From NCBI GenBank assembly GCA_944320885.1, contig CALUJE010000002.1:62001-126000 (forward strand): 64,000 nt of DNA. Direction: 5' to 3'. This DNA is from an uncultured Phocaeicola sp. GTDB lineage: Bacteria; Bacteroidota; Bacteroidia; Bacteroidales; Bacteroidaceae. The position numbers and the translations under genes were made by a program. The notes below the pieces were generated by a model. The model searched no databases and was not told where the DNA came from. It saw only the letters and a list, made by a program, of their open reading frames with translations. Positions within the stretch are counted from its first letter, which is position 1. Each line of letters begins with the position of its first letter. Of the stretch, positions 15,008 through 63,759 are shown piece by piece.

Positions 15008-15206
15008 CTAAAAATGCAACCATTAATGTAGCGTATTTAAGAATATTGTTTTTCAAATAAGGATTACTGTGCGAGTATGCATCCCTGATGAGATGTGGTT
15101 CGGGACTTTCGGTGAAAGGAAACATCTTTTTTCTTCTAGCACAAACAGGGAGAGGGAATAATAAGGATTTTACTCAAAAGTCATAAAGATGCCGTCTTCT
15201 GCTTTT

Positions 15207-15310
15207 TGCATACGAGGATGCACTGTTGTGCATAAGGCGGTGCAGTGTAGTGCATGCCGCGATGCACTGTGTTGCACAGGGCGGTGCACTATTTTGCATA
15301 GCCGCATGCA
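15207..15310. repeat. Phased TGCA array, 22-bp period (copy 1)
   Basis: TGCA begins at 15207, 15219, 15229, 15241, 15251, 15263, 15273, 15285, 15295 and 15307, that is spacings of 12 and 10 in strict alternation. Units such as TGCACTGTTGTGCA are separated by variable 8-mers. The array is a near-copy, in reverse orientation, of the one at 29051-29176; a stretch of about 49 nt matches with one difference. Because 22 is not a multiple of 3, it is not a coding repeat. Confidence 0.9.
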
Positions 15311-29050: not shown

Positions 29051-29176
29051 TGCACTGCCCGGTGCAGCACAGTGCATCCCTGTGTGCAGTGTAGTGCACC
29101 GCCCGATGCACTACACTGCACCGCCTTGTGCACAACAGTGCATCCTCGTATGCACTCTTCTGCACGGCCGTATGCA
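29051..29176. repeat. Phased TGCA array, 22-bp period (copy 2)
   Basis: TGCA begins at 29051, 29063, 29073, 29085, 29095, 29107, 29117, 29129, 29139, 29151, 29161 and 29173. Spacings of 12 and 10 alternate without exception over twelve copies. The reverse complement matches the array at 15207-15310, including the 8-mer spacers TACGAGGA and AAGGCGG. Confidence 0.92.
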
Positions 29177-29206
29177 CAAGACAGACAATCCGTTGGTTTT
29201 TGCTTT

Positions 29207-31587: not shown

Positions 31588-31673
31588 TTCACCCAAAACT
31601 GATGATTAGATTATCGAGGTTATCATTATAGCCATTCATAACAAATGCCATCTTTAATCCGTATTTTCCTGTC

Positions 31674-31767
31674 GGGGACAAACGACTTCCTCGTGGGGGA
31701 CTAACGGGATGCCCGTGGGGGACAAGCGAGGCCCTCGTCGGGGACAAACGACAAGGTTGTGGAGGCT
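31674..31767. repeat. GGGGAC array with exact 22-bp period
   Basis: GGGGAC begins at 31674, 31696, 31718 and 31740, each 22 bp apart, with a decayed copy (GAGGCT) at 31762, again 22 bp on. Spacer sequences vary (for example AAACGACTTCCTCGTG). The period equals that of the TGCA arrays, but the sequence is unrelated. Confidence 0.88.
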
Positions 31768-52073: not shown

Positions 52074-53057
52074 TTATGGATTGTCCGGTAATTTCAATTT
52101 ATATCCTTTCTCTTTGACTGTGATAAGCTCGTAATCGGTATTTTTCAGAACTTTTCGTATAAAGCTGATATGTGTGTTTATATTCTGTTCTGCATTGATG
52201 CTGTTTGGCCAGAACTTCTCTTTGATTTCCTGTCGGGTAATAGCGTAATGATTCTGTTCCTGAAACATAGCTAATATCTGCATATCCAGTTTACTCATGT
52301 TGTAGGGAATTCCCTGAATGATAATTTCTTTATTATCCCAATCAAATAAGATAGAAGTTGACACAGACTGTCTGTCATCTTCTCCCATTCTGTCAGAGAA
52401 AGATGTTTGTTGCTTCCGGTATATGACGCTCAGACCAGCTATGACAAGCAGTTCCAGAATCAATATATACCATAAACCGTACGGCATATATCTGATGGGA
52501 GCCAGAAAATCATAATTTACCCATCCCTGTATGCGGATATGTCCCAGAAAATCGACCGGTTTAACAGGGGTGCGATAGGCTGTCTGAGGGCTAATCGAAT
52601 CATTTTGGTTGTATTGCACATGGCCTTTATACCGGTAGATGATGCCGCTTGGATATTCTTTAGCCGATAGTTTTTCCCGAAAGATCTGTGCCAGTTCATC
52701 CGGGCAGATGGCATAAGAGGTTTTGGCCATTTGCAGTTGATGGACATATTTGTCTGCCGTGCTGGTATATATGCTGTCTTTAAACGTGATGTGATAGATT
52801 GAATCTGCTGTAACCAGTTTATATCGCTTTATTTTCCTGTTATAATGTGAATTGTTGTAACTGGAATGTTGTGATATAATCGAATTTCGATTATGATAGT
52901 CTATGTCAATGGCATCGGTCAAGGCATTGCAAGTTTGCTGTTTGAGCATGGAATATGAATATAAGTATAGTCCTGTGCCTGATAAAATGAAAACTAAGAC
53001 ACCTGTCAGTAGCAGATGGATATAGGATATTCTCTTTAATTTTCGTTTTGATACCAT
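52074..53057 (-). CDS. Two-pass membrane winged-helix regulator R2
   Basis: A 327-residue paralogue in architecture of R1 and R3. The first helix lies at about 8-32 (YIHLLLTGVLVFILSGTGLYLYS), an extracytoplasmic domain at about 33-188 and the second helix at about 190-212. The C-terminal OmpR-type winged helix (about 235-325) has ITRQEIKEKFWPNS and the recognition helix region NINTHISFIRKVL. It is divergent from the propeller gene at 53280, whose promoter carries the 35-nt element. Signal reception outside the membrane and DNA binding inside is inferred. Confidence 0.82.
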   Translation of the reverse strand: MVSKRKLKRISYIHLLLTGVLVFILSGTGLYLYSYSMLKQQTCNALTDAIDIDYHNRNSIISQHSSYNNSHYNRKIKRYKLVTADSIYHITFKDSIYTSTADKYVHQLQMAKTSYAICPDELAQIFREKLSAKEYPSGIIYRYKGHVQYNQNDSISPQTAYRTPVKPVDFLGHIRIQGWVNYDFLAPIRYMPYGLWYILILELLVIAGLSVIYRKQQTSFSDRMGEDDRQSVSTSILFDWDNKEIIIQGIPYNMSKLDMQILAMFQEQNHYAITRQEIKEKFWPNSINAEQNINTHISFIRKVLKNTDYELITVKEKGYKLKLPDNP

Positions 53058-53083: not shown

Positions 53084-53091
53084 CAAAGGTA
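53084..53091 (-). promoter_or_regulatory. Predicted -7 box for R2
   Basis: TACCTTTG on the minus strand, 27 nt before the R2 start codon. Confidence 0.55.
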
Positions 53092-53163: not shown

Positions 53164-53198
53164 ATCTTAAATAAAGATTTAAGGTGAATTTTAATGTA
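53164..53198 (+). promoter_or_regulatory. 35-nt conserved element, copy 1
   Basis: It begins ATCTTAAATA and ends TTTAATGTA. It contains the perfect dyad CTTAAAT-AAAG-ATTTAAG and two TTTAA half-sites 12 bp apart (TTTAAGGTGA and TTTAATGTA). Copy 2 at 55918-55952 matches at 30 of 35 positions. Both end 29 nt before a -7 box, as expected for an activator site. Confidence 0.75.
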
Positions 53199-53227
53199 GT
53201 AATGTATCTTTTTTTACAGGAAAGATG

Positions 53228-53235
53228 TATATTTA
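53228..53235 (+). promoter_or_regulatory. Predicted -7 box for the propeller gene at 53280
   Basis: TATATTTA, one mismatch from TAnnTTTG, with no -33 TTTG. This fits a promoter that needs an activator. Confidence 0.5.
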
Positions 53236-53279
53236 GTCACTAATCGGAATGTATATATGAAAATGTAAGATATTGAGTT

Positions 53280-54338
53280 ATGAGAAGGCATATTTATTTG
53301 ATTTGTATCCTTTTTCTGTTGACGGCATGTCAGAAGAAGAATCTTTCTAATGAAGTGAATGTAGAATTCAGCAATGCGGTATCAGAAATCAATTATTCTA
53401 CGTTTGTAAAATCAGCAGAGTATCTTTCGCTTCACCTTCCGGACAGTGTACTGATAAATACAGTCGAGGCTCTGTATTTTGATGATGGTAAGATTTTTGT
53501 CAAAGACAGTAAGAGAGAAGGAATTTTCATCTTTGATGAAAAGAGTGGGCAATTCATTCACCGGTTGAAAGCTTATGGTGAGGGACCGAGAGAAATTAAG
53601 CGAATAGGAAGTTTCTGTCTGGATAGTTACCATAAGCATATCTGTATTTTTGATAGCGGTGATAATAAAATAAAGAGATATGATTATTCGGGTAACTATG
53701 TATCATCGTGCGCTGTTGATTATTTTGTATTGGATATGGTTCAGCTGCAAAATGATGGAATGATTTGCTTTTATCCGGTATATGCCTATCAGGAGCAGCC
53801 AAGTGGTATTTGGTCTGTCGATTCATTGAATAATTTTAGAAAACAGCTTTATGCCCATGTTACGGAAGACTGTAAATTCCACTATTTTCCAATGATGTAT
53901 AATTGGAATGATACGTGTGCCTATTATTATGACCGCAATTGGAATGAATTGTTGCAAGTTTCTGCGGACACTGTTCGTCTGTTGTATACTTTCAATATAG
54001 AGAATGCACTTCCCTTATCGAAGAAAGGGATAAGAAACTTGTCGCCTTCGGATTTGGATGGATATAATATTGTTCATCATTTTGCCTATTCGGAACATTT
54101 CATTTTATTGTCTGTTCATACTTTCAATAAAAATGATATGTTATCAAAAAATATAACATGGATTTTATTTGATCAAAAAACAGCCACAACAGTTGTATCC
54201 GAATCATTGCGGAATGATTTGGTTTCAAACCATGACATAGGAAATAACACCCTGTTTTACAAGAATAATAGCACATGGGTTCGTATAGATGACTCTTCGG
54301 ATAGTATAATTCGTTTGGAATTGTTGTATTTGTTGTAA
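53280..54338 (+). CDS. Six-bladed beta-propeller lipoprotein (PF17170-like)
   Basis: A 352-residue predicted lipoprotein (lipobox LLTAC, Cys17). The mature part resembles the Bacteroidales six-bladed propeller family PF17170: a region like INYSTFVKSAEYLSLHLPD, a first blade DDGKIFVKD, then GEGPREIKRIG (about 105), the G-x-GP-x-E motif. It is similar to the proteins at 62704 and 63771. It is monocistronic and divergent from R2. Function is unknown; ligand or glycan binding at the surface is only a guess. Confidence 0.82.
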   Translation: MRRHIYLICILFLLTACQKKNLSNEVNVEFSNAVSEINYSTFVKSAEYLSLHLPDSVLINTVEALYFDDGKIFVKDSKREGIFIFDEKSGQFIHRLKAYGEGPREIKRIGSFCLDSYHKHICIFDSGDNKIKRYDYSGNYVSSCAVDYFVLDMVQLQNDGMICFYPVYAYQEQPSGIWSVDSLNNFRKQLYAHVTEDCKFHYFPMMYNWNDTCAYYYDRNWNELLQVSADTVRLLYTFNIENALPLSKKGIRNLSPSDLDGYNIVHHFAYSEHFILLSVHTFNKNDMLSKNITWILFDQKTATTVVSESLRNDLVSNHDIGNNTLFYKNNSTWVRIDDSSDSIIRLELLYLL

Positions 54339-54370
54339 TGTGTTTATAATCAAATAAATAACAATGGGTA

Positions 54371-54453
54371 AAAACGACGTGTCCTTTTTGAAAAAGCACA
54401 CGTCGTTTTCATTGAAAGCACCCGTCCTTTTTAAAAAAGCACACGTGCTTTTT
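54371..54453. terminator. Two tandem hairpins between convergent genes
   Basis: AAAACGACGTGT pairs perfectly with ACACGTCGTTTT (54371-54409), with CTTTTT/AAAAAG inside. A second hairpin (AAAGCAC/GTGCTTT, with CTTTTT/AAAAAG, about 54415-54451) follows. The CGT motifs start at 54378, 54401, 54423 and 54444, about 22 bp apart. The first hairpin resembles the one at 50937-50976. Confidence 0.8.
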
Positions 54454-54484
54454 TACGAATGAATATATAGTTATACGCTGTTTT

Positions 54485-55450
54485 TTACAGCAGAGCTGTG
54501 TTTTCAATGAATCCTAATTGAAGTTGGTAACCGTTTTGTATGGAAACGATATTAATTTCTTGTATGCAATTCAATGATTTTCTCAGTCTTGCTATGGCTT
54601 GACCTATTCTTTGTTTTTCTGTTCTGTTTACTTCATTTTCATCTTCATATGATATATGATATATCTGTTTGCAGATGTCCGTGTATTTCAGTTTATGCTC
54701 TTCCGCTTTAAGAAAGGCAGTTATATAAAGTGTCTCCGTATAAGTCAGTTTGATTTCATTGCTCTCATTCTTTAAAATATGTTTGTCTGGATATAGTTTC
54801 CATCCATTTGATAATGGAATTTTTTCATATTCATTATCATTTGTAATAGATAGTTCTTTGTTACCATTTGGCTTATGAGCCTTTTTCTCAATATAAAATG
54901 TAATACAGATAAGGTATAAGATACATCCACCAGTGATTAGTAATATGTAAGGATAGTTAAGCCATTGTGATACTGTAATGTTTATATATGGTTGCAAAAT
55001 AATATCTTTTTTTCTGTCATTATCAAAACGATACACAACCGGAAGTAATGGCGTATATTGTTTTATTTGTTCTGGAGTTCCTGTAGAATTCGTGTTTTTA
55101 TTATAAGTACAGGACACAAATGATTCCGTTTGAATATTTTCTTCAAGCAATAATGCTGAGAATGTAGAATCCAAATAGATTCTGGTAGGATCTTCCATAT
55201 TTATATAAAGTTGTTTTATCCATTCTTCTTTTTCTGTTAATGATACGCTTTTATCTTCTGTTGTATCAGTTTTATGTATGGAGATACTTCTTTTTATATA
55301 ATGGAGCTTTTCTCTTTCCAGTGATTCCTTAAAAGTTAAATTGGCTTTTTCGGCCAGATTGTGTCTGTAAATACCATATCCTATCAGGTTGGCTATTCCC
55401 CATATGATTATTGTTATGCATATGTATTTATGTAAGCGCTTTATTTTCAT
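54485..55450 (-). CDS. Two-pass membrane winged-helix regulator R3
   Basis: A 321-residue protein of the same design as R1 and R2. The first helix lies at about 8-26 (YICITIIIWGIANLIGYGIY), an extracytoplasmic domain at about 27-160, and the second helix at about 163-182. The C-terminal winged helix (about 215-315) has LTYTETLYITAFLKAEEHKLKYTDI and IGQAIARLRKSLNCI. It is divergent from the propeller operon that starts at 56081 and is the likely controller of that operon. TGTCAACA motifs near its own promoter suggest autoregulation. Confidence 0.82.
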   Translation of the reverse strand: MKIKRLHKYICITIIIWGIANLIGYGIYRHNLAEKANLTFKESLEREKLHYIKRSISIHKTDTTEDKSVSLTEKEEWIKQLYINMEDPTRIYLDSTFSALLLEENIQTESFVSCTYNKNTNSTGTPEQIKQYTPLLPVVYRFDNDRKKDIILQPYINITVSQWLNYPYILLITGGCILYLICITFYIEKKAHKPNGNKELSITNDNEYEKIPLSNGWKLYPDKHILKNESNEIKLTYTETLYITAFLKAEEHKLKYTDICKQIYHISYEDENEVNRTEKQRIGQAIARLRKSLNCIQEINIVSIQNGYQLQLGFIENTALL

Positions 55451-55494
55451 ATAAGATTCTTGTTGTTAAGTAGAATAAATATTCTTGTAGCAGA

Positions 55495-55548
55495 CAAAAG
55501 TATAGTATTTTATAGAAATGTCAACAGTCAACAATCAAAATGTCAACA
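55495..55548 (-). promoter_or_regulatory. R3 promoter with TGTCAACA repeats
   Basis: Minus strand: -7 TACTTTTG (55495-55502), -33-like GTTG (55522-55525). TGTCAACA occurs at 55519-55526 and 55541-55548, exactly 22 bp apart, with another TCAACA at 55528. The first copy overlaps the -33 region. Confidence 0.5.
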
Positions 55549-55780
55549 AAAAAATTTATACTACTTACAAGAATAGCATATTTTTGCTGCAACATCTAAA
55601 TATGATATATGCAGACAAATGTGAAAGAAATCCATGATAGTTGCAGTTTTCTCCGTGATGTAAAAGTGCATTTATACTTTAACGGAAGGAACTTTATCTG
55701 TGAAGTTTGCTTTTAGATTGTATGATAATATGGCTTATCAGACCTGGAAAATTTTACATTTTTCATGTATAATATGAAAA

Positions 55781-55842
55781 GTGAGTAAAAAGTGATAGTA
55801 AAGTGAGCTAAAAGTGATAGTAAAAGTAGGAGAAAAATAGGA
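55781..55842. repeat. 11-bp phased GTGA repeats
   Basis: GTGA starts at 55781, 55792, 55803 and 55814, exactly 11 bp apart, each preceded by an A-run; every second unit is GTGATAGTAAA. Two further related units (GTAGGAG at 55826 and ATAGGAG at 55837) are 11 bp apart. The pattern fits tandem winged-helix sites or phased A-tract bending. Confidence 0.85.
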
Positions 55843-55917
55843 GAGCTTACTTAATTTTGTGTTCAGAATATTTGTGCTGGTTAGTGATTGAAAACTTAGA
55901 TATTGAATATTAAATCA

Positions 55918-55952
55918 ATCTTAAATAGATTTTTAAGGTGAGATTTAATGTA
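55918..55952 (+). promoter_or_regulatory. 35-nt conserved element, copy 2
   Basis: It matches copy 1 (53164-53198) at 30 of 35 positions without a gap, including ATCTTAAATA, TTTAAGGTGA and TTTAATGTA. The -7 box follows after 29 nt, as in copy 1. Confidence 0.75.
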
Positions 55953-55981: not shown

Positions 55982-55989
55982 TACATTTG
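55982..55989 (+). promoter_or_regulatory. Predicted -7 box of the propeller operon
   Basis: TACATTTG matches TAnnTTTG, with no -33 TTTG. The leader to 56081 is about 85 nt and contains an ATATCTG/CAGATAT hairpin (56028-56047) followed by a T-rich run. Confidence 0.5.
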
Positions 55990-56080: not shown

Positions 56081-57274
56081 ATGATGAAGTCAATACTAAT
56101 GAAAAATACAGTTGCTGGAATAATTTTAGCCTTGATTGCTATGACGGTATACGGGTGTGATCAAAAGAAGAAAACCTGTGAAGAAAAAAATGCGGTGACA
56201 TGCCATATCGTTGAAAAGCATATTCCGGCGTCTGATGTGTTGTATCTAAAAGCTTATCCTCTTTCAGCTTCCTATCAGACAAGTAAAGATACAATCATTT
56301 TGGGATATAATTATCGTTCGCATGCCTTGGATGTAATAGATTGTCGGACGGATAGTGTTCGTGAAATACGGTTTGAAAAAGAGGGAAACAATGCTGTAAC
56401 GGGACGTTTGACATCTCTGTATGTCCATAATATGGATTCCATCTGGATTTATTCAGAATCGATGCAGGCATATTTGGTAGACCAAACAGGAAGTATTCGG
56501 CAGAAACTGAATTTGAATGATTATCTTCAGGATGGCGAAGAACTGTTGCTAATGAATAATCATGCTGTTTGTACTTCCCGTTTATATTATGATGCGTTAC
56601 GTGGCACATTGCTATATGGCATTGTGAACAGGAATTCGTCTCCGTGCACATTTAAGGTTTGCGAATTGGATTTGAAATCACTTGAAATAGTGAATGAATA
56701 TTCTTTGCAGGCTTCTCTTGCAGATAAAGATGTAAGTAGCGGATATGCAAATATGAATAATGCCGTGAATATAGCTTTTCACGACAGTCTGATTGTATAT
56801 AATTATCCTATAGAATCACATATATATGTACTTAATCGCCTTACGGGAAGTTTCCGAGCCTTAGAGGCCGACAGTCGTTATACAAAAAACTGTGCTGAAA
56901 AATGCCTTTCAAAAGATTATTCTTTATGGGAAAGACATCAGATAGAGAACCCTCATTTCTTTGATGTGATGTATCTCTCTGAAGTTGGCATATATGCACG
57001 TCTGCATTTGGGAGGGGTGGCATACAGGCAGGATACAGACTTGGGTCAGTTGTCCGACTCACGTTCTTTATATGTGTCTTTTTATGATACTGATTTTCAT
57101 AAACTGGGAGAACAGATGTTACCGGAACGCCGTTACAGTTACTATACAGGATGGTGTGGCATGAACGATGGAATTTTGCTGTTTGTAGATAATGCACTGG
57201 CCGATTATGATTTTTCTGAAGATTTGTATGTTGACAAGGTTTATCCTGTTAAAACTGGCTTGAAAACGGAATAA
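56081..57274 (+). CDS. DUF4221-like propeller lipoprotein
   Basis: A 397-residue predicted lipoprotein (lipobox TVYGC near residue 26), first gene of a run of at least eight propeller genes. It resembles the DUF4221 proteins at 30424 and 59463, for instance in the C-terminal FYDTDFHKLGEQMLPERRY, but the EGPDA motif is changed to EGNNA. The mature protein has several extra Cys residues. Met1, Met2 and Met7 are all possible starts. The 35-nt element and phased repeats upstream suggest control by R3. Confidence 0.75.
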   Translation: MMKSILMKNTVAGIILALIAMTVYGCDQKKKTCEEKNAVTCHIVEKHIPASDVLYLKAYPLSASYQTSKDTIILGYNYRSHALDVIDCRTDSVREIRFEKEGNNAVTGRLTSLYVHNMDSIWIYSESMQAYLVDQTGSIRQKLNLNDYLQDGEELLLMNNHAVCTSRLYYDALRGTLLYGIVNRNSSPCTFKVCELDLKSLEIVNEYSLQASLADKDVSSGYANMNNAVNIAFHDSLIVYNYPIESHIYVLNRLTGSFRALEADSRYTKNCAEKCLSKDYSLWERHQIENPHFFDVMYLSEVGIYARLHLGGVAYRQDTDLGQLSDSRSLYVSFYDTDFHKLGEQMLPERRYSYYTGWCGMNDGILLFVDNALADYDFSEDLYVDKVYPVKTGLKTE

Positions 57275-57319
57275 TGATGAATGGATGATTATGAGGATTG
57301 ATATAAATTGGAAATAGTT

Positions 57320-58372
57320 ATGAAAATGAAATATATCTTGATATTCAGTTTGTTTTTGCTAGGTTGTGCTTCCGGCCCAAAACAACAAAAAATGAGTTTA
57401 GAAAAGATTGAAGAATCAAGTGTTGATTCTTTGGTTTTACATCCGGTTCCCGGCATGGAGTTGTGGTGTAGTGACGGGCTGTCTGTTTGTGACAGTTGTC
57501 TTCTAATTCTGGATCGTTGTCAAGATAAGAAGTTGTATGTCTATAGATTGAACGATTTCAAATGTGTCGCCAATATCGGAGCTGTGGGACAGGGACCGGA
57601 AGATATGATTTTTCCTTTCTTCCTTCACAATAATATCTCTTCTTCAAATCAGCAAACAATATATGATGTGAATATGGCCCGTATTAAAACCATTGATATC
57701 CATTCCTTGTTGAGCGGTTCAAAGGAGATTATCAAACAGAATATTCCTTTACCGGCAGAAGTGATAGGATCTACAGACATGTCACAGATCGGTGATTCGT
57801 ATTATGGGACAAAAGATTCTAATGAAGGCCTGTTTTTCATATATTCACAAACAGACAGTATTATGAAATGGATTCCTTATTCCAAGTCGGTGCAACCATC
57901 TGAAGGAAATAAGCTGACAACTGTCGGTCAGAGTCGTATCACGGTTCATCTTAATCAGAAACTTGTTGCCGTAGCCATGCGGTATTATAATCAGATTTTT
58001 TTGTATGACAATAAGGGAGAATTCTTAAAAGGAGTCACTTTAGGTAAAGAAATAGAGCCCGTTTATGAAAGTCCTGAAAAATTAAGTACATCATCTGAGC
58101 TATTTTTCTCACAAATTAGTTCTACTGATAATTATATTTATTTGGTAACGGCCAATCAATATTATAAGGATACCCGTCCGGCCAGTCAACGTCCAAGAGA
58201 TATCGTTGTTTTTGATTGGGAATTGAATCATGTGAAAACATTTAAGACAAATAAATGTATTCAGCAGTTGATAGTAGATCCTGTTTATCGTCGTTTATTG
58301 CTTTTGTGCATAAATGATGAGGAAGAACCGGAACTGTATTATGCTGATTTTCAGGAAAGTCAACTCATATGA
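57320..58372 (+). CDS. BF3164-type propeller lipoprotein
   Basis: A 350-residue predicted lipoprotein (lipobox FLLGC, Cys16). The ATG at 57320 was chosen over a TTG at 57308. GAVGQGPEDMIFP near residue 90 is the propeller motif. It is clearly paralogous to the protein at 61663: both share LLILDRC/LLLIDRC, a GS-x-D motif followed by YYGT/YWGT, and AMRYYN/GMRYYN. This points to duplication within the operon. Function is unknown. Confidence 0.82.
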   Translation: MKMKYILIFSLFLLGCASGPKQQKMSLEKIEESSVDSLVLHPVPGMELWCSDGLSVCDSCLLILDRCQDKKLYVYRLNDFKCVANIGAVGQGPEDMIFPFFLHNNISSSNQQTIYDVNMARIKTIDIHSLLSGSKEIIKQNIPLPAEVIGSTDMSQIGDSYYGTKDSNEGLFFIYSQTDSIMKWIPYSKSVQPSEGNKLTTVGQSRITVHLNQKLVAVAMRYYNQIFLYDNKGEFLKGVTLGKEIEPVYESPEKLSTSSELFFSQISSTDNYIYLVTANQYYKDTRPASQRPRDIVVFDWELNHVKTFKTNKCIQQLIVDPVYRRLLLLCINDEEEPELYYADFQESQLI

Positions 58373-58422
58373 AATAGGAAACAATGTTAGAATTATGTAA
58401 CATTTTTAGAATTGAAATAACT

Positions 58423-59436
58423 ATGAAAAAGGGAATTTTATTGTTGATATCTTTTGTTGTTTTTAGTTGTGCTTCTCATGAACCTTCTTCTAAAGTTTTA
58501 GAACTGGATGAAGGAATTCCTGTTGTAGCAAAGGAATATAAAAATGAGTTGATTATTACCAATCCATTGGATTTGGCTGTAATAGACAATAAATTAGTAT
58601 TGTTTATGCATTCCGGTGAAAAACCGCTTTTAATTGTAAATCCGGATGACGGTACACTTACAGGTAGCTGGGGAGAGTTTGGAAACGGACCGGATGAATT
58701 TACAGCGCCAACATATTGGGGGCATGATAAGTCGAAACAGGAGCTTTACTTATACGATGTAAATTATCGTGTATTACGTGTATATCGTTACCAGGCTGCG
58801 GGTGACAGTTTGTCGTTCAATAGAATTAGAGAAGTTGCAATGTCAGATGAAATTATGGTAAATTGTGGAACAGTATTAGATAATAGCAATATAGTTACCT
58901 CAGTCTTGTTTTTTGGAAATGCGCCCATACAGTTATTGGATAAGGATTTAAGGACGCTGTCTGGATTCGGTTGGTTATCAGAACAAGGTGATTCATCAAC
59001 AGATATGCGTACATTTAAAGGAAGACTTTCGTCTTATAAAAATTCATTTGCATTTGGTATGGATGGAATAGGATATTTGGCATTTTATAATCAAACAGAT
59101 ACAACAGCATATAAAGAATGGGAGGTTTATTTGGATAAACCTTTATATGTAGGTGATAGACTTGATTTGAAAAAAGTAAAACAAGGGTTTCTTGATATAG
59201 AAGTGACCAAACACTACGTTATATGTAGCTATTGCGGTAAGCCTTATTCGCGTGAAGATGGAGGTTTTTATGGTTATAATATCCTTGTATTTGACCATGA
59301 CGGTGATTTGGTTCACAACTTGAAATTAGATAGGGAGATTGGTCGCATAGCTGTATCGGATGATGAAAAGACTGTTTATGCAGTAGCTTATGAACCGGAT
59401 ATATGTATTGTCAGATATACATTAAATGACTTATAA
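58423..59436 (+). CDS. BF3164-like propeller lipoprotein
   Basis: A 337-residue predicted lipoprotein (lipobox VFSC near residue 16 from the ATG at 58423; the frame opens at 58384 but its extra residues spoil the signal peptide). GEFGNGPDEFTAP near residue 85 is the shared motif, followed by ELYLYDVNYRVLRVY. It is part of the 56-64 kb operon. Function is unknown. Confidence 0.8.
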   Translation: MKKGILLLISFVVFSCASHEPSSKVLELDEGIPVVAKEYKNELIITNPLDLAVIDNKLVLFMHSGEKPLLIVNPDDGTLTGSWGEFGNGPDEFTAPTYWGHDKSKQELYLYDVNYRVLRVYRYQAAGDSLSFNRIREVAMSDEIMVNCGTVLDNSNIVTSVLFFGNAPIQLLDKDLRTLSGFGWLSEQGDSSTDMRTFKGRLSSYKNSFAFGMDGIGYLAFYNQTDTTAYKEWEVYLDKPLYVGDRLDLKKVKQGFLDIEVTKHYVICSYCGKPYSREDGGFYGYNILVFDHDGDLVHNLKLDREIGRIAVSDDEKTVYAVAYEPDICIVRYTLNDL

Positions 59437-59443
59437 TTTTATT

Positions 59444-59482
59444 TATAGAAATTCTATAGAGTATGAAAAAGGTAATGTATTT
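59444..59482 (+). repeat. Duplicated start region, copy 1
   Basis: The palindrome TATAGAAATTCTATA (59444-59458) lies 4 nt before the start codon at 59463. The palindrome, spacer and first codons recur almost unchanged at 60627-60664. Confidence 0.75.
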
Positions 59483-60620
59483 TCGTTTGTTCCTTATTAT
59501 GCTGTGTCTTGTTTCATTATATGTAGATGGAAAAACTATTTCTAAGCATATAGTGTCGTTAGCGGCAACAGGGAAGATTAAAAGTTTTCAATTGGACTCA
59601 GATACAAGATATAATGCTTTCTATTTGTATCCTTTTGAGGATAAGACAGGTAAAGAATATCTTTCTTTTTTAAATTATGGAAGTAACCAAATACTTTTTT
59701 ATGATTTAGAAACCGCTAATTTTATTTTTAAAATTAACTTGCCATCTGATGGGCCAGACGCTATAGTCCGATTGTCTGGTTATTATATTGAGAATTTTGA
59801 AAATATATATTTAACTTCTTACTCTTATAAAGGGATTATAAAAGTGGATACGACTTCACATATTATAAGTAAAATTCCGTATGCAAGAACAGTTTCGGGA
59901 TTCGACTTTTTGCCTTCGTATGTTTCATCTTCTCATCCATATACAGCTCCATATTTTATTGATGGATATCTATTTTTGATGCCACCTTTAGTAAAACGTT
60001 CTAATCCGGCAGAAAAAACACCACTTTGTGTTTGTATTGATACTCTGTCTAATAAGATTTTTGAGTCTAGAATTACGTATGGAGATGTATTATCAGAAGA
60101 AGAAATGGCAACAAACGATACTAGATGTAGTAGAATTTTTGATGGTGAAAATTTTGTTTATTCCTTTTATGTAAATAATGATATTATAGTAACGGATAAA
60201 AAGCATAAAGAGATAAAGAGATTTGCAGCAAAAAGTGCGTATATAAAATCTTCTAGAGAGAAACAAGAAGTAGGTTTAAATGGGGCTAAATCAAATTTGG
60301 AAATTCCTCGTTATGGTGACTTGATATATGATAAATATAGGGAAGTTTATTATAGGTTTGCTTATCATAAAACAGAATTGGATGATGATATGGAGTGGAG
60401 AGGAAAAGCTGTTTATGGAAGAAAGAAATTTTCTGTAATCATATTAGATAAAGAGTTTAATGTGATAGGTGAAACATTGTTTCCAGAATCTATATATAAT
60501 TCATATGTCTTTTTTGTCAAAAGAGAAGGCTTATATATAAGTAGAGATTATCGGATAGGGATTGGTAAGCAATCTGAAAATTATTTAACATTTGAACTTT
60601 TTGAATTAAGATATAGTTAA
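59463..60620 (+). CDS. DUF4221-like propeller protein without lipobox
   Basis: A 385-residue exported protein with DUF4221 traits: PSDGPDAIVRLSG near residue 95 and VIILDKEFNVIGETLFPESIYN near the C terminus. The signal region (YFRLFLIMLCLVSLYVDGKTIS) has no lipobox Cys, unlike the other propeller genes here, so a soluble periplasmic or secreted form is likely. The gene is visibly more AT-rich than its neighbours in 30-50 kb. It starts right after a 13- to 15-nt palindrome shared with the next gene. Confidence 0.75.
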   Translation: MKKVMYFRLFLIMLCLVSLYVDGKTISKHIVSLAATGKIKSFQLDSDTRYNAFYLYPFEDKTGKEYLSFLNYGSNQILFYDLETANFIFKINLPSDGPDAIVRLSGYYIENFENIYLTSYSYKGIIKVDTTSHIISKIPYARTVSGFDFLPSYVSSSHPYTAPYFIDGYLFLMPPLVKRSNPAEKTPLCVCIDTLSNKIFESRITYGDVLSEEEMATNDTRCSRIFDGENFVYSFYVNNDIIVTDKKHKEIKRFAAKSAYIKSSREKQEVGLNGAKSNLEIPRYGDLIYDKYREVYYRFAYHKTELDDDMEWRGKAVYGRKKFSVIILDKEFNVIGETLFPESIYNSYVFFVKREGLYISRDYRIGIGKQSENYLTFELFELRYS

Positions 60621-60626
60621 ATATTA

Positions 60627-60664
60627 ATAGAAATTCTATAGAGTATGAATAAGGTAATATATCT
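60627..60664 (+). repeat. Duplicated start region, copy 2
   Basis: ATAGAAATTCTAT (60627-60639), then TAGAGT and the ATG at 60645, followed by nearly the same first codons as copy 1 at 59444-59482. Only about three bases differ over 38. Confidence 0.75.
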
Positions 60665-61646
60665 TTTATTGATTGTATTTTGTTTTGCTTGTAGTTCACA
60701 AAATACGGAAAAGGAAAGAATTTACAATTCCTGGGATAAGGAGGCAGATGTAAAAGATGCCGTTCGTGAATTAAGTTTGGAAGACGTAATGGTTCATGAT
60801 AATTCTTCACTATATGTAAATGGAAATTATATATTAATAGTAGACCATAGTTCAATGGATAACCAAATCTTTGTTATTGGTAAGAATGATTTTCATTATG
60901 CAGGTAGTTTTGCACATAAGGGAGGAGGTCCAAACGAAATTACTAATATTGGAGATTTAGCTTTTAATGAATCACAGCAATTAGTTTACATTACTGATTT
61001 CGGTAAACAGAAAATTCTATCATGTAACATTGATAGTGTCTTGATGGATTCATCATATACATTTAAGGAAGTTGCCTCATTAGAGAAATCTCAATTTCCC
61101 AGTGAATATACTTATATAAACGACACACTGTGTGTTGGTCGATTTATTTTTCCGATAGGAAATAATAATTATCGTCCGCAAGTGGCTAAATGGAATATGC
61201 TTACAGGCGAATATAAACTAATGGGGTACGAGCATCCTGGTATTGAAAGTAAGCGTATGACTTGTGCGGTGTCTGCAGAGAAACAATTGTATGCAGAATG
61301 TTATAGTAATCATGATTTACTCACGATTGGTGATTTTGATGGTAATTTGAAATGTAATATCTATGGCCCCAAATGGAAAGAAAGTACAAGAGGAGTCAAT
61401 TATTACGGTAAAGCTGTATTCCGTAATAATCAGATTATTGTACCTTACTCTGGAGGCACCCGTAAAAACGATACTTATGAGCCGATCAAATTTCATGTAT
61501 TCGATATAGATGGAAATTATCTGAAAACATTAAATATAGGTTATAAGATTATCAGATATTGTTATGATAAAGATAATGATCGTTTAATTATGTGTTTTAA
61601 TGATGAAATTCAGTTTGGATATTTGGACTTGAAAGATTTGATATAG
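60645..61646 (+). CDS. Six-bladed beta-propeller lipoprotein
   Basis: A 333-residue predicted lipoprotein (lipobox FCFAC, Cys16). HKGGGPNEITNIGDLAF near residue 95 is the shared G-x-GP-x-E motif. The protein body does not resemble the preceding gene closely, although their start regions are nearly identical, so the repeat there reflects recombination or a shared control site more than whole-gene duplication. It is AT-rich. Function is unknown. Confidence 0.78.
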   Translation: MNKVIYLLLIVFCFACSSQNTEKERIYNSWDKEADVKDAVRELSLEDVMVHDNSSLYVNGNYILIVDHSSMDNQIFVIGKNDFHYAGSFAHKGGGPNEITNIGDLAFNESQQLVYITDFGKQKILSCNIDSVLMDSSYTFKEVASLEKSQFPSEYTYINDTLCVGRFIFPIGNNNYRPQVAKWNMLTGEYKLMGYEHPGIESKRMTCAVSAEKQLYAECYSNHDLLTIGDFDGNLKCNIYGPKWKESTRGVNYYGKAVFRNNQIIVPYSGGTRKNDTYEPIKFHVFDIDGNYLKTLNIGYKIIRYCYDKDNDRLIMCFNDEIQFGYLDLKDLI

Positions 61647-61662
61647 AAACAAATATATTCTT

Positions 61663-62685
61663 ATGAAATATCTATCCCTGTTAATCATAGTGACTGCTTT
61701 TTGGTGCTGCTCTCGGAAAGAATCTGCAGAAAAAAGTGTGGTTCGTCAGGAACAGATTGTGGAAACAAAACCTGTAGAAATAATTTTGAAGGACTTGTTT
61801 TGTCTGGAGCAGGTATGCATAAAAGATTCATTTCTGTTACTGATTGATCGTTGCGATTCTTGCATGTTTCATGTGTATGATATGAAGCGCGACAGTCTGG
61901 TAGTTTCTTTTGGAGTAAGAGGGCAGGGACCCAATGATTTTTTATATCCTATGTTTTTATCAGGTACAGATGTGAAAGACTGTGATTCTGTATATTGTTA
62001 TGATGTGAATTCACGTATGATAAAGTCTTTTGCATGGAAATACATTACATCTGGTAAGACTTCTGATATGGGGAGGTTTGATCTTTCCGAAAAGATTGCC
62101 GGTTCTCCAGATCTGACTAAGATAGATGAGGAATATTGGGGAACATTAGACTATATTCAATCTGGTATATATTTTAAATATGCTGAATATGAAGATTCGT
62201 TGGTATGGACAGCATATCCGGAGAGTTTATTGAAATATTCCCAGGGTTTGGGTCTGCAATCAAGAATCGGAGTTCATCCAACCCGAAAGACTCTAGTGGC
62301 AGGTATGAGATATTATAATAAATTGTTCTTATACACTTCTGCCGGGACATTGCAGCGAGAAGTACAAATAGGATATGATGATATATTTCCGGTAGTGGAT
62401 GAAAAGAAAAAGACCGTATTGGAACAAAGTACACTTTGCTGTCAGGCTATTCGGATAACAGAAAATGAGGTGTATGTATTGTATTGCGGATGGCCGCTCA
62501 ATGAGGCGCCAAATGAAAAAAGTACCTCCCGAATATTGGTTTTTGACCAGGAATTGAATTATCAGAGAACTTATATATTGCCTTATAAGGCTGTTTCATT
62601 TGCGGTAGACAATGACTCCCGAATACTGGCATATATAGGGCTAAAAGGAGAGCAATTCATAGTAGGAATTATTCAAACAATGTAG
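61663..62685 (+). CDS. BF3164-type propeller lipoprotein, paralogue of 57320
   Basis: A 340-residue predicted lipoprotein (lipobox AFWCC near residue 15). GVRGQGPNDFLYP near residue 85 is the propeller motif. Strand-by-strand similarity to the 57320 protein is clear (LLLIDRC, YWGT, GMRYYNKLFLY). It starts 17 nt after the preceding stop codon. Function is unknown. Confidence 0.82.
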   Translation: MKYLSLLIIVTAFWCCSRKESAEKSVVRQEQIVETKPVEIILKDLFCLEQVCIKDSFLLLIDRCDSCMFHVYDMKRDSLVVSFGVRGQGPNDFLYPMFLSGTDVKDCDSVYCYDVNSRMIKSFAWKYITSGKTSDMGRFDLSEKIAGSPDLTKIDEEYWGTLDYIQSGIYFKYAEYEDSLVWTAYPESLLKYSQGLGLQSRIGVHPTRKTLVAGMRYYNKLFLYTSAGTLQREVQIGYDDIFPVVDEKKKTVLEQSTLCCQAIRITENEVYVLYCGWPLNEAPNEKSTSRILVFDQELNYQRTYILPYKAVSFAVDNDSRILAYIGLKGEQFIVGIIQTM

Positions 62686-62703
62686 TTTATCATAAAGTAA
62701 ATT

Positions 62704-63759
62704 ATGAAAAGTAATATTCTGTATATAGTAATGACACTTATGTTGTGTTACGCCTGCGCCGACAATTCTGCTACGAAAATGAAGTCGGGAACTCTTCTTT
62801 CAATAAATTTGGAATTGGCACAACCCGTTATGGAAGTTCTGGAGAAAACAGGTAGTATTTCTTTGGAAAATGAAGGAGATACTTTTCCCGGACAGATTCA
62901 TAAAATGCTGATAGATAAGGATGCATTATATTTATTGGATACATATCGTGCACCAGGACTTTATAAGTATGATAGAAATGGTCGTTTTCTTACTGTTTAC
63001 AATCGGCTAGGTCAAGGAAATGGAGAATTTATCGGATTGTCTGATTTTCAGATCTATGGTGACACGATCTATTTGTTAGATTCTTCGGGAAAGAAAATTA
63101 TCAAACTCGACAAGCAGTGCCGATTTCATTCTTCAACCAATCTTTCGGTTATGCCGCTTGCTTTTGCAAAAGACAGTTTGGACGGTACTTGGATAGATAC
63201 AGGAAACACTGCTTTATCAGAGAAGGCTTACACGCTGCTTTATGAACATGAACACACAATGCAGAATGTTCTTTCCATTCCTTTTGAGTTACGTAATATG
63301 ACGTATGCCCCTTATTTTACACTGATAAATGTAGGGAATGCAGTTCATTTTCTTCCTGAAATGCAAAATAAGATTTATAGTTGCGAGAATGGAGAGGCTG
63401 TTCTGATTTATTATTTGGATTTTGGTAAACATTGGTTCACATCCGATTTTTTGGAAGAAAACAAAAATACGAATTCAATGATTTTTTTCCGTAAAATGAA
63501 GGAAGCCGGGTATGTCAATGAGTTAAATTATCTGGAATCGGAAAGTTTGTTATTGCTGTCTTTCAACTGTAATGCAGAATCATACTTGTTCGTATATGAT
63601 AAGGATGACCAAAAACAGGTATTATGTGTGAAAGAAAACGATGAATTGTTTCGCCCGTTGGCAATTAGCGGAGAAGAAATCTTATTTGTTGAAATGACCG
63701 ATTCATGCAATATTATCAATAAATATCGTATCAAAGGCTATAATGACAAGAATCTTTAA
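62704..63759 (+). CDS. Six-bladed beta-propeller lipoprotein (PF17170-like)
   Basis: A 351-residue predicted lipoprotein (lipobox CYAC near residue 19). It has a blade DKDALYLLDTYRAPGLYKYDRNG, then LGQGNGEFIGLSDF, in which GP is replaced by GN, and DTIYLLDSSGKKIIKLD. It is most like the proteins at 53280 and 63771. It is part of the long operon. Confidence 0.8.
   Translation: MKSNILYIVMTLMLCYACADNSATKMKSGTLLSINLELAQPVMEVLEKTGSISLENEGDTFPGQIHKMLIDKDALYLLDTYRAPGLYKYDRNGRFLTVYNRLGQGNGEFIGLSDFQIYGDTIYLLDSSGKKIIKLDKQCRFHSSTNLSVMPLAFAKDSLDGTWIDTGNTALSEKAYTLLYEHEHTMQNVLSIPFELRNMTYAPYFTLINVGNAVHFLPEMQNKIYSCENGEAVLIYYLDFGKHWFTSDFLEENKNTNSMIFFRKMKEAGYVNELNYLESESLLLLSFNCNAESYLFVYDKDDQKQVLCVKENDELFRPLAISGEEILFVEMTDSCNIINKYRIKGYNDKNL

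Follow-up and report, generated by a model that had tools for sequence, protein, structure and literature searches.

The locus described here lies in a stretch of 64,000 nucleotides (the window) from an uncultured Phocaeicola sp., and it raises the question of what a 35-nt element might do that stands at the same distance ahead of two promoters of propeller genes, P1 and P2, and which of the regulators encoded beside it, R2 or R3, would read it.

Table 1. Features of the locus, in window positions except where L016 is given.
Feature	Position	Strand	Basis or remark
Predicted membrane protein R2: two membrane helices, periplasmic domain, OmpR/PhoB-type winged helix at the C-terminus	52074..53057	-	Pfam, AlphaFold, Foldseek
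Possible -7 box of R2, TACCTTTG	53084..53091	-	read from sequence
E1, 35-nt element, ATCTTAAATAAAGATTTAAGGTGAATTTTAATGTA	53164..53198	+	upstream of P1, divergent from R2
-7 box of P1, TATATTTA	53228..53235	+	29 nt past E1; one base (the last) off TAnnTTTG
P1, 6-bladed beta-propeller lipoprotein-like gene	53280..54338	+	DUF5128, E 1.3e-27
R3, predicted membrane winged-helix regulator	54485..55450	-	AlphaFold, Foldseek
Possible -7 box of R3, TACTTTTG	55495..55502	-	read from sequence
Three GTCAACA heptamers, probable R3 site	55520..55548		adjoin R3 promoter; common to closest R3 homolog (L054)
Six 11-bp AAAAGTGA-type units	55777..55844	+	27 nt from the end of its conserved part to TAATTTTG
-7 box TAATTTTG, probable upstream P2 promoter	55852..55859	+	27 nt past the conserved part of the 11-bp array
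E2, second element copy, ATCTTAAATAGATTTTTAAGGTGAGATTTAATGTA	55918..55952	+	upstream of P2
-7 box of P2, TACATTTG	55982..55989	+	29 nt past E2; exact TAnnTTTG
P2 and six further propeller genes	56081..63759	+	first 7 of a same-strand run of 16
R2', close R2 paralog outside the window	L016:10995-12125	-	83% identical to R2

Two elements at a fixed distance from -7 boxes

The original prediction was that E1 and E2 match at 30 of 35 positions without gaps and that each ends 29 nt before a -7 box, and both points were borne out at the same positions, the distance being exact for both copies. When the two intergenic regions were shuffled 1000 times with their dinucleotides preserved, the best 35-mer match was 22.8 on average (sd 0.97) and 27 at most, compared to 30 in the actual regions. 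The flanks are unrelated, as had been claimed, and the likeness is confined to the element. Chance or simple duplication as the origin of the pair was rejected on the basis of the shuffles together with the flanks. With up to 3 mismatches allowed, the consensus of the pair was found 2 times in the 64-kb window against 0 expected, only as E1 and E2 across the 2.99-Mb genome, and not at all in 200 other genomes of the family. E1 consists of three TTTAA-type half-sites of which the first is inverted. The 12-bp step between TTTAA half-sites and the CTTAAAT dyad (CTTAAAT/ATTTAAG), both noted earlier, can be seen in the sequence, and the dyad holds at 8/9 positions in E1 and 7/9 in E2.

TAnnTTTG is the -7 consensus of Bacteroides primary-sigma promoters (PMC7366714), and the boxes named here are matches to this consensus only, that of P1 being imperfect. 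A TTTG near -33, which is a further feature of Bacteroides primary-sigma promoters, is missing from both 29-nt spacers, in agreement with the original prediction. The promoter-proximal half-site of E1 begins 38 nt before the -7 box, so that a protein bound there would cover the place of the missing -33 element.

A third copy, ACCTCAAATAAAAATTTGAGGTGAGATTTGATATG (L016:12142-12176), was found outside the window between R2' and a divergent gene for an NVEALA peptide, 30 nt ahead of TATATTTG, a -7 box which fits TAnnTTTG exactly. At the 30 positions common to E1 and E2 this copy has 6 differences, 3 of which fall on the corresponding base of the three half-sites, TTTAA having become TTTGA and, in the inverted one, CTTAA having become CTCAA, and its dyad is 9/9. 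The probability that six random changes would include those three positions is about 0.005. Such a coordinated change would be expected if the protein reading this operator had a slightly different recognition domain. Identity between R2 and R2' is 89% in the first 223 residues and 69% in the DNA-binding part, where they differ most, and this divergence taken together with the TTTAA/TTTGA change fits a co-drift of the regulator and its predicted operator.

A sequence model made from the three copies gave E values of 3e-7, 3e-7 and 8e-7 for them when the genome was scanned, and nothing further below E 0.1. Since the three copies were recovered by construction, the informative outcome is the absence of others. 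The strong copies genome-wide are therefore three, all in this one gene cluster within a span of 22.5 kb and none elsewhere, a non-random placement that agrees with the original prediction. A weak match at C2:177971 (E 0.14) was rejected as a further copy, having neither a correctly placed -7 box nor a suitable gene, and a search of plasmids gave no match. A weak candidate for a fourth copy, TTTGATGTAAAATTTGATGT (L016:9688-9712), lies in the intergenic space ahead of the last propeller gene; the distance from the start of its last half-site to GAATTTTG is 38 nt, as it is in E1.

The regulators and their relatives in other genomes

The AlphaFold models of R2 and R3 (pLDDT 85.5 and 76.7, respectively) begin with a long helix and end with a winged helix, and between the two lie an alpha/beta domain and then another long helix; the membrane orientation of both proteins is inferred. 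Foldseek matched both winged helices to CadC, ToxR, PhoB-like and SaeR domains, the fold being close to that of CadC, SaeR, AdeR and ToxR in the PDB, and thus by AlphaFold and Foldseek both proteins have an OmpR/PhoB-type winged-helix fold. Pfam detected Trans_reg_C in R2 (E 9e-9) and did not detect it in R3, and neither Pfam nor NCBIfam found a kinase or receiver domain in either protein. No sequence similarity between R2 and R3 could be detected (BLASTP E 0.4; 16% in a forced alignment).

Relatives of the R2 type were present in 21 of the 398 genomes searched, its own genome counted, mostly of one genus, and those of the R3 type in 3 other genomes; a scan of a wider collection with an R2 alignment returned one relative only. 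Most of the relatives are divergent from an NVEALA gene that is often followed by a DUF1573-type gene, and some face other genes. The divergent region of each relative has a repeat sequence of its own. When 24 regulator regions were matched against themselves, the mean z peaked at 2.98 for lag 11 and at 2.80 for lag 22 and stayed below 1 for every other lag, and in 25 control intergenic regions its value for lag 11 was 0.02. Thus, at the level of the family, a tandem operator-type period of 11 bp is present in the 24 regions as compared to the 25 controls. E1, E2 and the third copy do not contain such an 11-bp direct repeat, their step being 12 bp and their first half-site inverted. The relatives L033 and L042 have CTTAAG/TTTAAGG arrays that closely resemble E1.

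The signal at lag 22 was discarded as evidence for the family because it is present in the controls too, where it comes from unrelated GC-richer repeats. Intergenic arrays of this 22-bp period lie in the window at 15204-15301, 29062-29177 and 31671-31751 and outside it at L018:10892-11005 and L016:15406-15544; they are made of alternating palindromic units (e.g. GTGCA/TGCAC) without an 11-bp signal and are possibly terminators or REP-like repeats.

Fifteen arrays were clear, and 8 of them are followed at 27-33 nt by a -7 box of relaxed consensus, compared to 0.87 expected; with the strict consensus the count in the same range is 5, compared to 0.61 expected. These figures overstate independence because the 27-33 range was set post hoc and some of the regions are related to each other. 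That the arrays of the relatives often end at this distance suggests that the 29-nt rule is a rule of the family.

Which protein would read the elements

It is very probable that a membrane-anchored regulator of propeller lipoprotein genes docks at E1 and E2, and the explanation that we consider reasonably likely is that these elements are the operator of R2, which would activate P1 and the 16-gene propeller run that begins with P2. Copies one and three stand beside R2 and its paralog R2' (83% identity), and for this reason the element is best read as R2-type and E2 as a site of R2 on the P2 promoter, R2 being the probable reader of both E1 and E2. R2 would be anchored in the inner membrane by an N-terminal membrane helix and, after a periplasmic domain, a second membrane helix, with the C-terminal winged helix in the cytoplasm. 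Several winged helices would bind side by side on the half-sites and, through contact with RNA polymerase, recruit it. OmpR/PhoB activators contact RNA polymerase from such positions. R2 would in this way switch on the adjoining P1 and, via E2, the propeller run next to R3, while R2' would act on its own NVEALA peptide operon through the recoded copy, in which TTTGA replaces TTTAA; related genomes would have this arrangement too, each regulator with a repeat sequence of its own. Two points go against R2 as the reader: the 12-bp step and the inverted first half-site of the elements are unlike the 11-bp direct repeats of most relatives, and E2 adjoins R3 and not R2.

The latter point leads to an explanation in which R2 would read E1 and R3 would read E2, each the element beside its own gene, R3 having retained this DNA specificity or converged on it. 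The divergent region between R3 and P2 is indeed where a cognate site usually lies in this family. However, R2 and R3 have no detectable sequence similarity, as described above, and the regions of the R3 homologs contain no E-like element. What R3 shares with its closest homolog (L054, 39% identical) is repeated GTCAACA in both regions, a shared repeat to which a comparable one arose in 3 of 1000 shuffles, and these heptamers lie upstream of the possible -7 box that faces R3. The same region offers an alternative site in the 11-bp array at 55777-55844, which has a -7 box of its own and is likely the operator of another winged-helix regulator, R3 or other; R1 homologs, which were examined for the owner of this array, were uninformative. 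R3 thus probably reads other repeats nearby and not E2, and reading by own neighbours appears unlikely. Given the GTCAACA repeats and the array with its own box, P2 is probably served by two promoters and receives several inputs, from R2 via E2 and, via the other sites, from R3 and perhaps one more regulator.

The protein and the sign of regulation are both deduced from sequence, which leaves some room for a soluble regulator encoded elsewhere or for a repressor site instead of an activator site. We consider this quite unlikely, as the strong copies are confined to this cluster and include those at R2 and R2', relatives of the same regulator have similar arrays beside them, and the position upstream of a -7 box without the -33 TTTG suits activation. 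The closeness of paralogous regulators and of paralogous propeller genes shows that local duplication has occurred here, and the elements could be its functionless remnants. This is very improbable given that the likeness ends at the element and yet the spacing to the box is kept, that no shuffle reached 30/35, and that the changes in the third copy are coordinated. The evidence thus favours binding by R2 alone over R2 together with R3, and activation by it over repression. Of the earlier proposal that the element is the activator site of the R2/R3 family, what holds is a predicted operator at a fixed distance from -7 boxes and its likely use by neighbouring winged-helix regulators; the part concerning R3 is not supported, since R3 has no detectable sequence similarity to R2, the regions of its homologs lack the element, and its own region shares GTCAACA with that of its closest homolog.

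R2 and R3 are like the transmembrane regulators of the ToxR/CadC type as one-component regulators in which a membrane protein combines a periplasmic domain with a winged helix of the OmpR/PhoB type. The proposed ToxR site is a repeat, TNAAA-N5-TNAAA (PMC8517210). ToxR and CadC, however, have the winged helix at the N-terminus, a single membrane helix and a C-terminal periplasmic domain, a layout that is absent from the models of R2 and R3, where the winged helix is C-terminal and two membrane helices are predicted; the targets here, propeller and NVEALA genes, also differ. With OmpR/PhoB response regulators they share the winged-helix fold, the 11-bp-period repeats upstream of the promoter in most relatives and a site that occupies the place of an upstream promoter element, but R2 and R3 are predicted to be membrane-anchored and have no Pfam receiver domain, and E1-E3, the third copy being E3, have a 12-bp step and an inverted first half-site. 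The hybrid two-component systems of Bacteroides, which are reported to make up about 72% of its transmembrane regulators (PMC10269533), resemble them as locally encoded membrane regulators beside surface-protein operons, but differ by the kinase and receiver domains that Pfam and NCBIfam do not find in R2 and R3. What the sequences point to is a set of membrane-anchored regulators with OmpR-type operators, here with a C-terminal winged helix, a three-half-site operator with a 12-bp step, and peptide and propeller targets that we did not find in the literature searched.

Propeller and NVEALA genes of the cluster

The run of consecutive same-strand propeller-type lipoprotein-like genes extends from window position 56081 to L016:10982 (C2:118081-136482) and is terminated by the convergent R2' gene. 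All 16 genes match a propeller-type Pfam family or DUF4221, a few of these matches being below the curated cut-off. The gene beside the third copy encodes a 77-residue NVEALA peptide (PF14055, E 6e-8), which Pfam matched and NCBIfam did not, and it is followed by a DUF1573 gene. No established role is known to us, either for NVEALA peptides or for these Bacteroidaceae propeller lipoproteins; NVEALA was mentioned in none of the papers searched, and nothing direct turned up on this type of regulator in Bacteroides. With a predicted regulator and its short recognisable operator, these genes would gain a regulatory context that can be tested directly. The layout that recurs, in which an array ends about 30 nt before a -7 box, may allow pairs of regulator and target to be read from sequence across the family, and R2 and R2', with their paired TTTAA/TTTGA change within a single genome, would be a ready case for the study of specificity drift in winged helices.

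A more tentative idea, unlikely as a whole, is that the periplasmic domain senses an NVEALA-type peptide (or propeller lipoprotein) under its own control, that duplicated pairs of regulator and operator diverge from TTTAA to TTTGA so that parallel circuits become insulated, and that E2 wires one of them to the large propeller operon. Feedback from the peptide or propeller as the periplasmic signal is a guess.

Two more NVEALA genes lie at about L016:13687-13850 and L016:18277-18440 (PF14055, E 2e-15 and 5e-16, respectively), each followed by a DUF4221-like propeller gene; their leaders are near-identical and upstream of neither is there a copy of the 35-nt element. In the relative G008, a second NVEALA-like frame (ALASGEG) lies downstream of the NVEALA gene, at L018:9060-9215, and is apparently interrupted by a frame change. 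Finally, between the convergent P1 and R3 a 21-bp repeat in 3.4 copies (GTCCTTTTTAAAAAAGCACAC, window 54381-54453) resembles stacked terminators.
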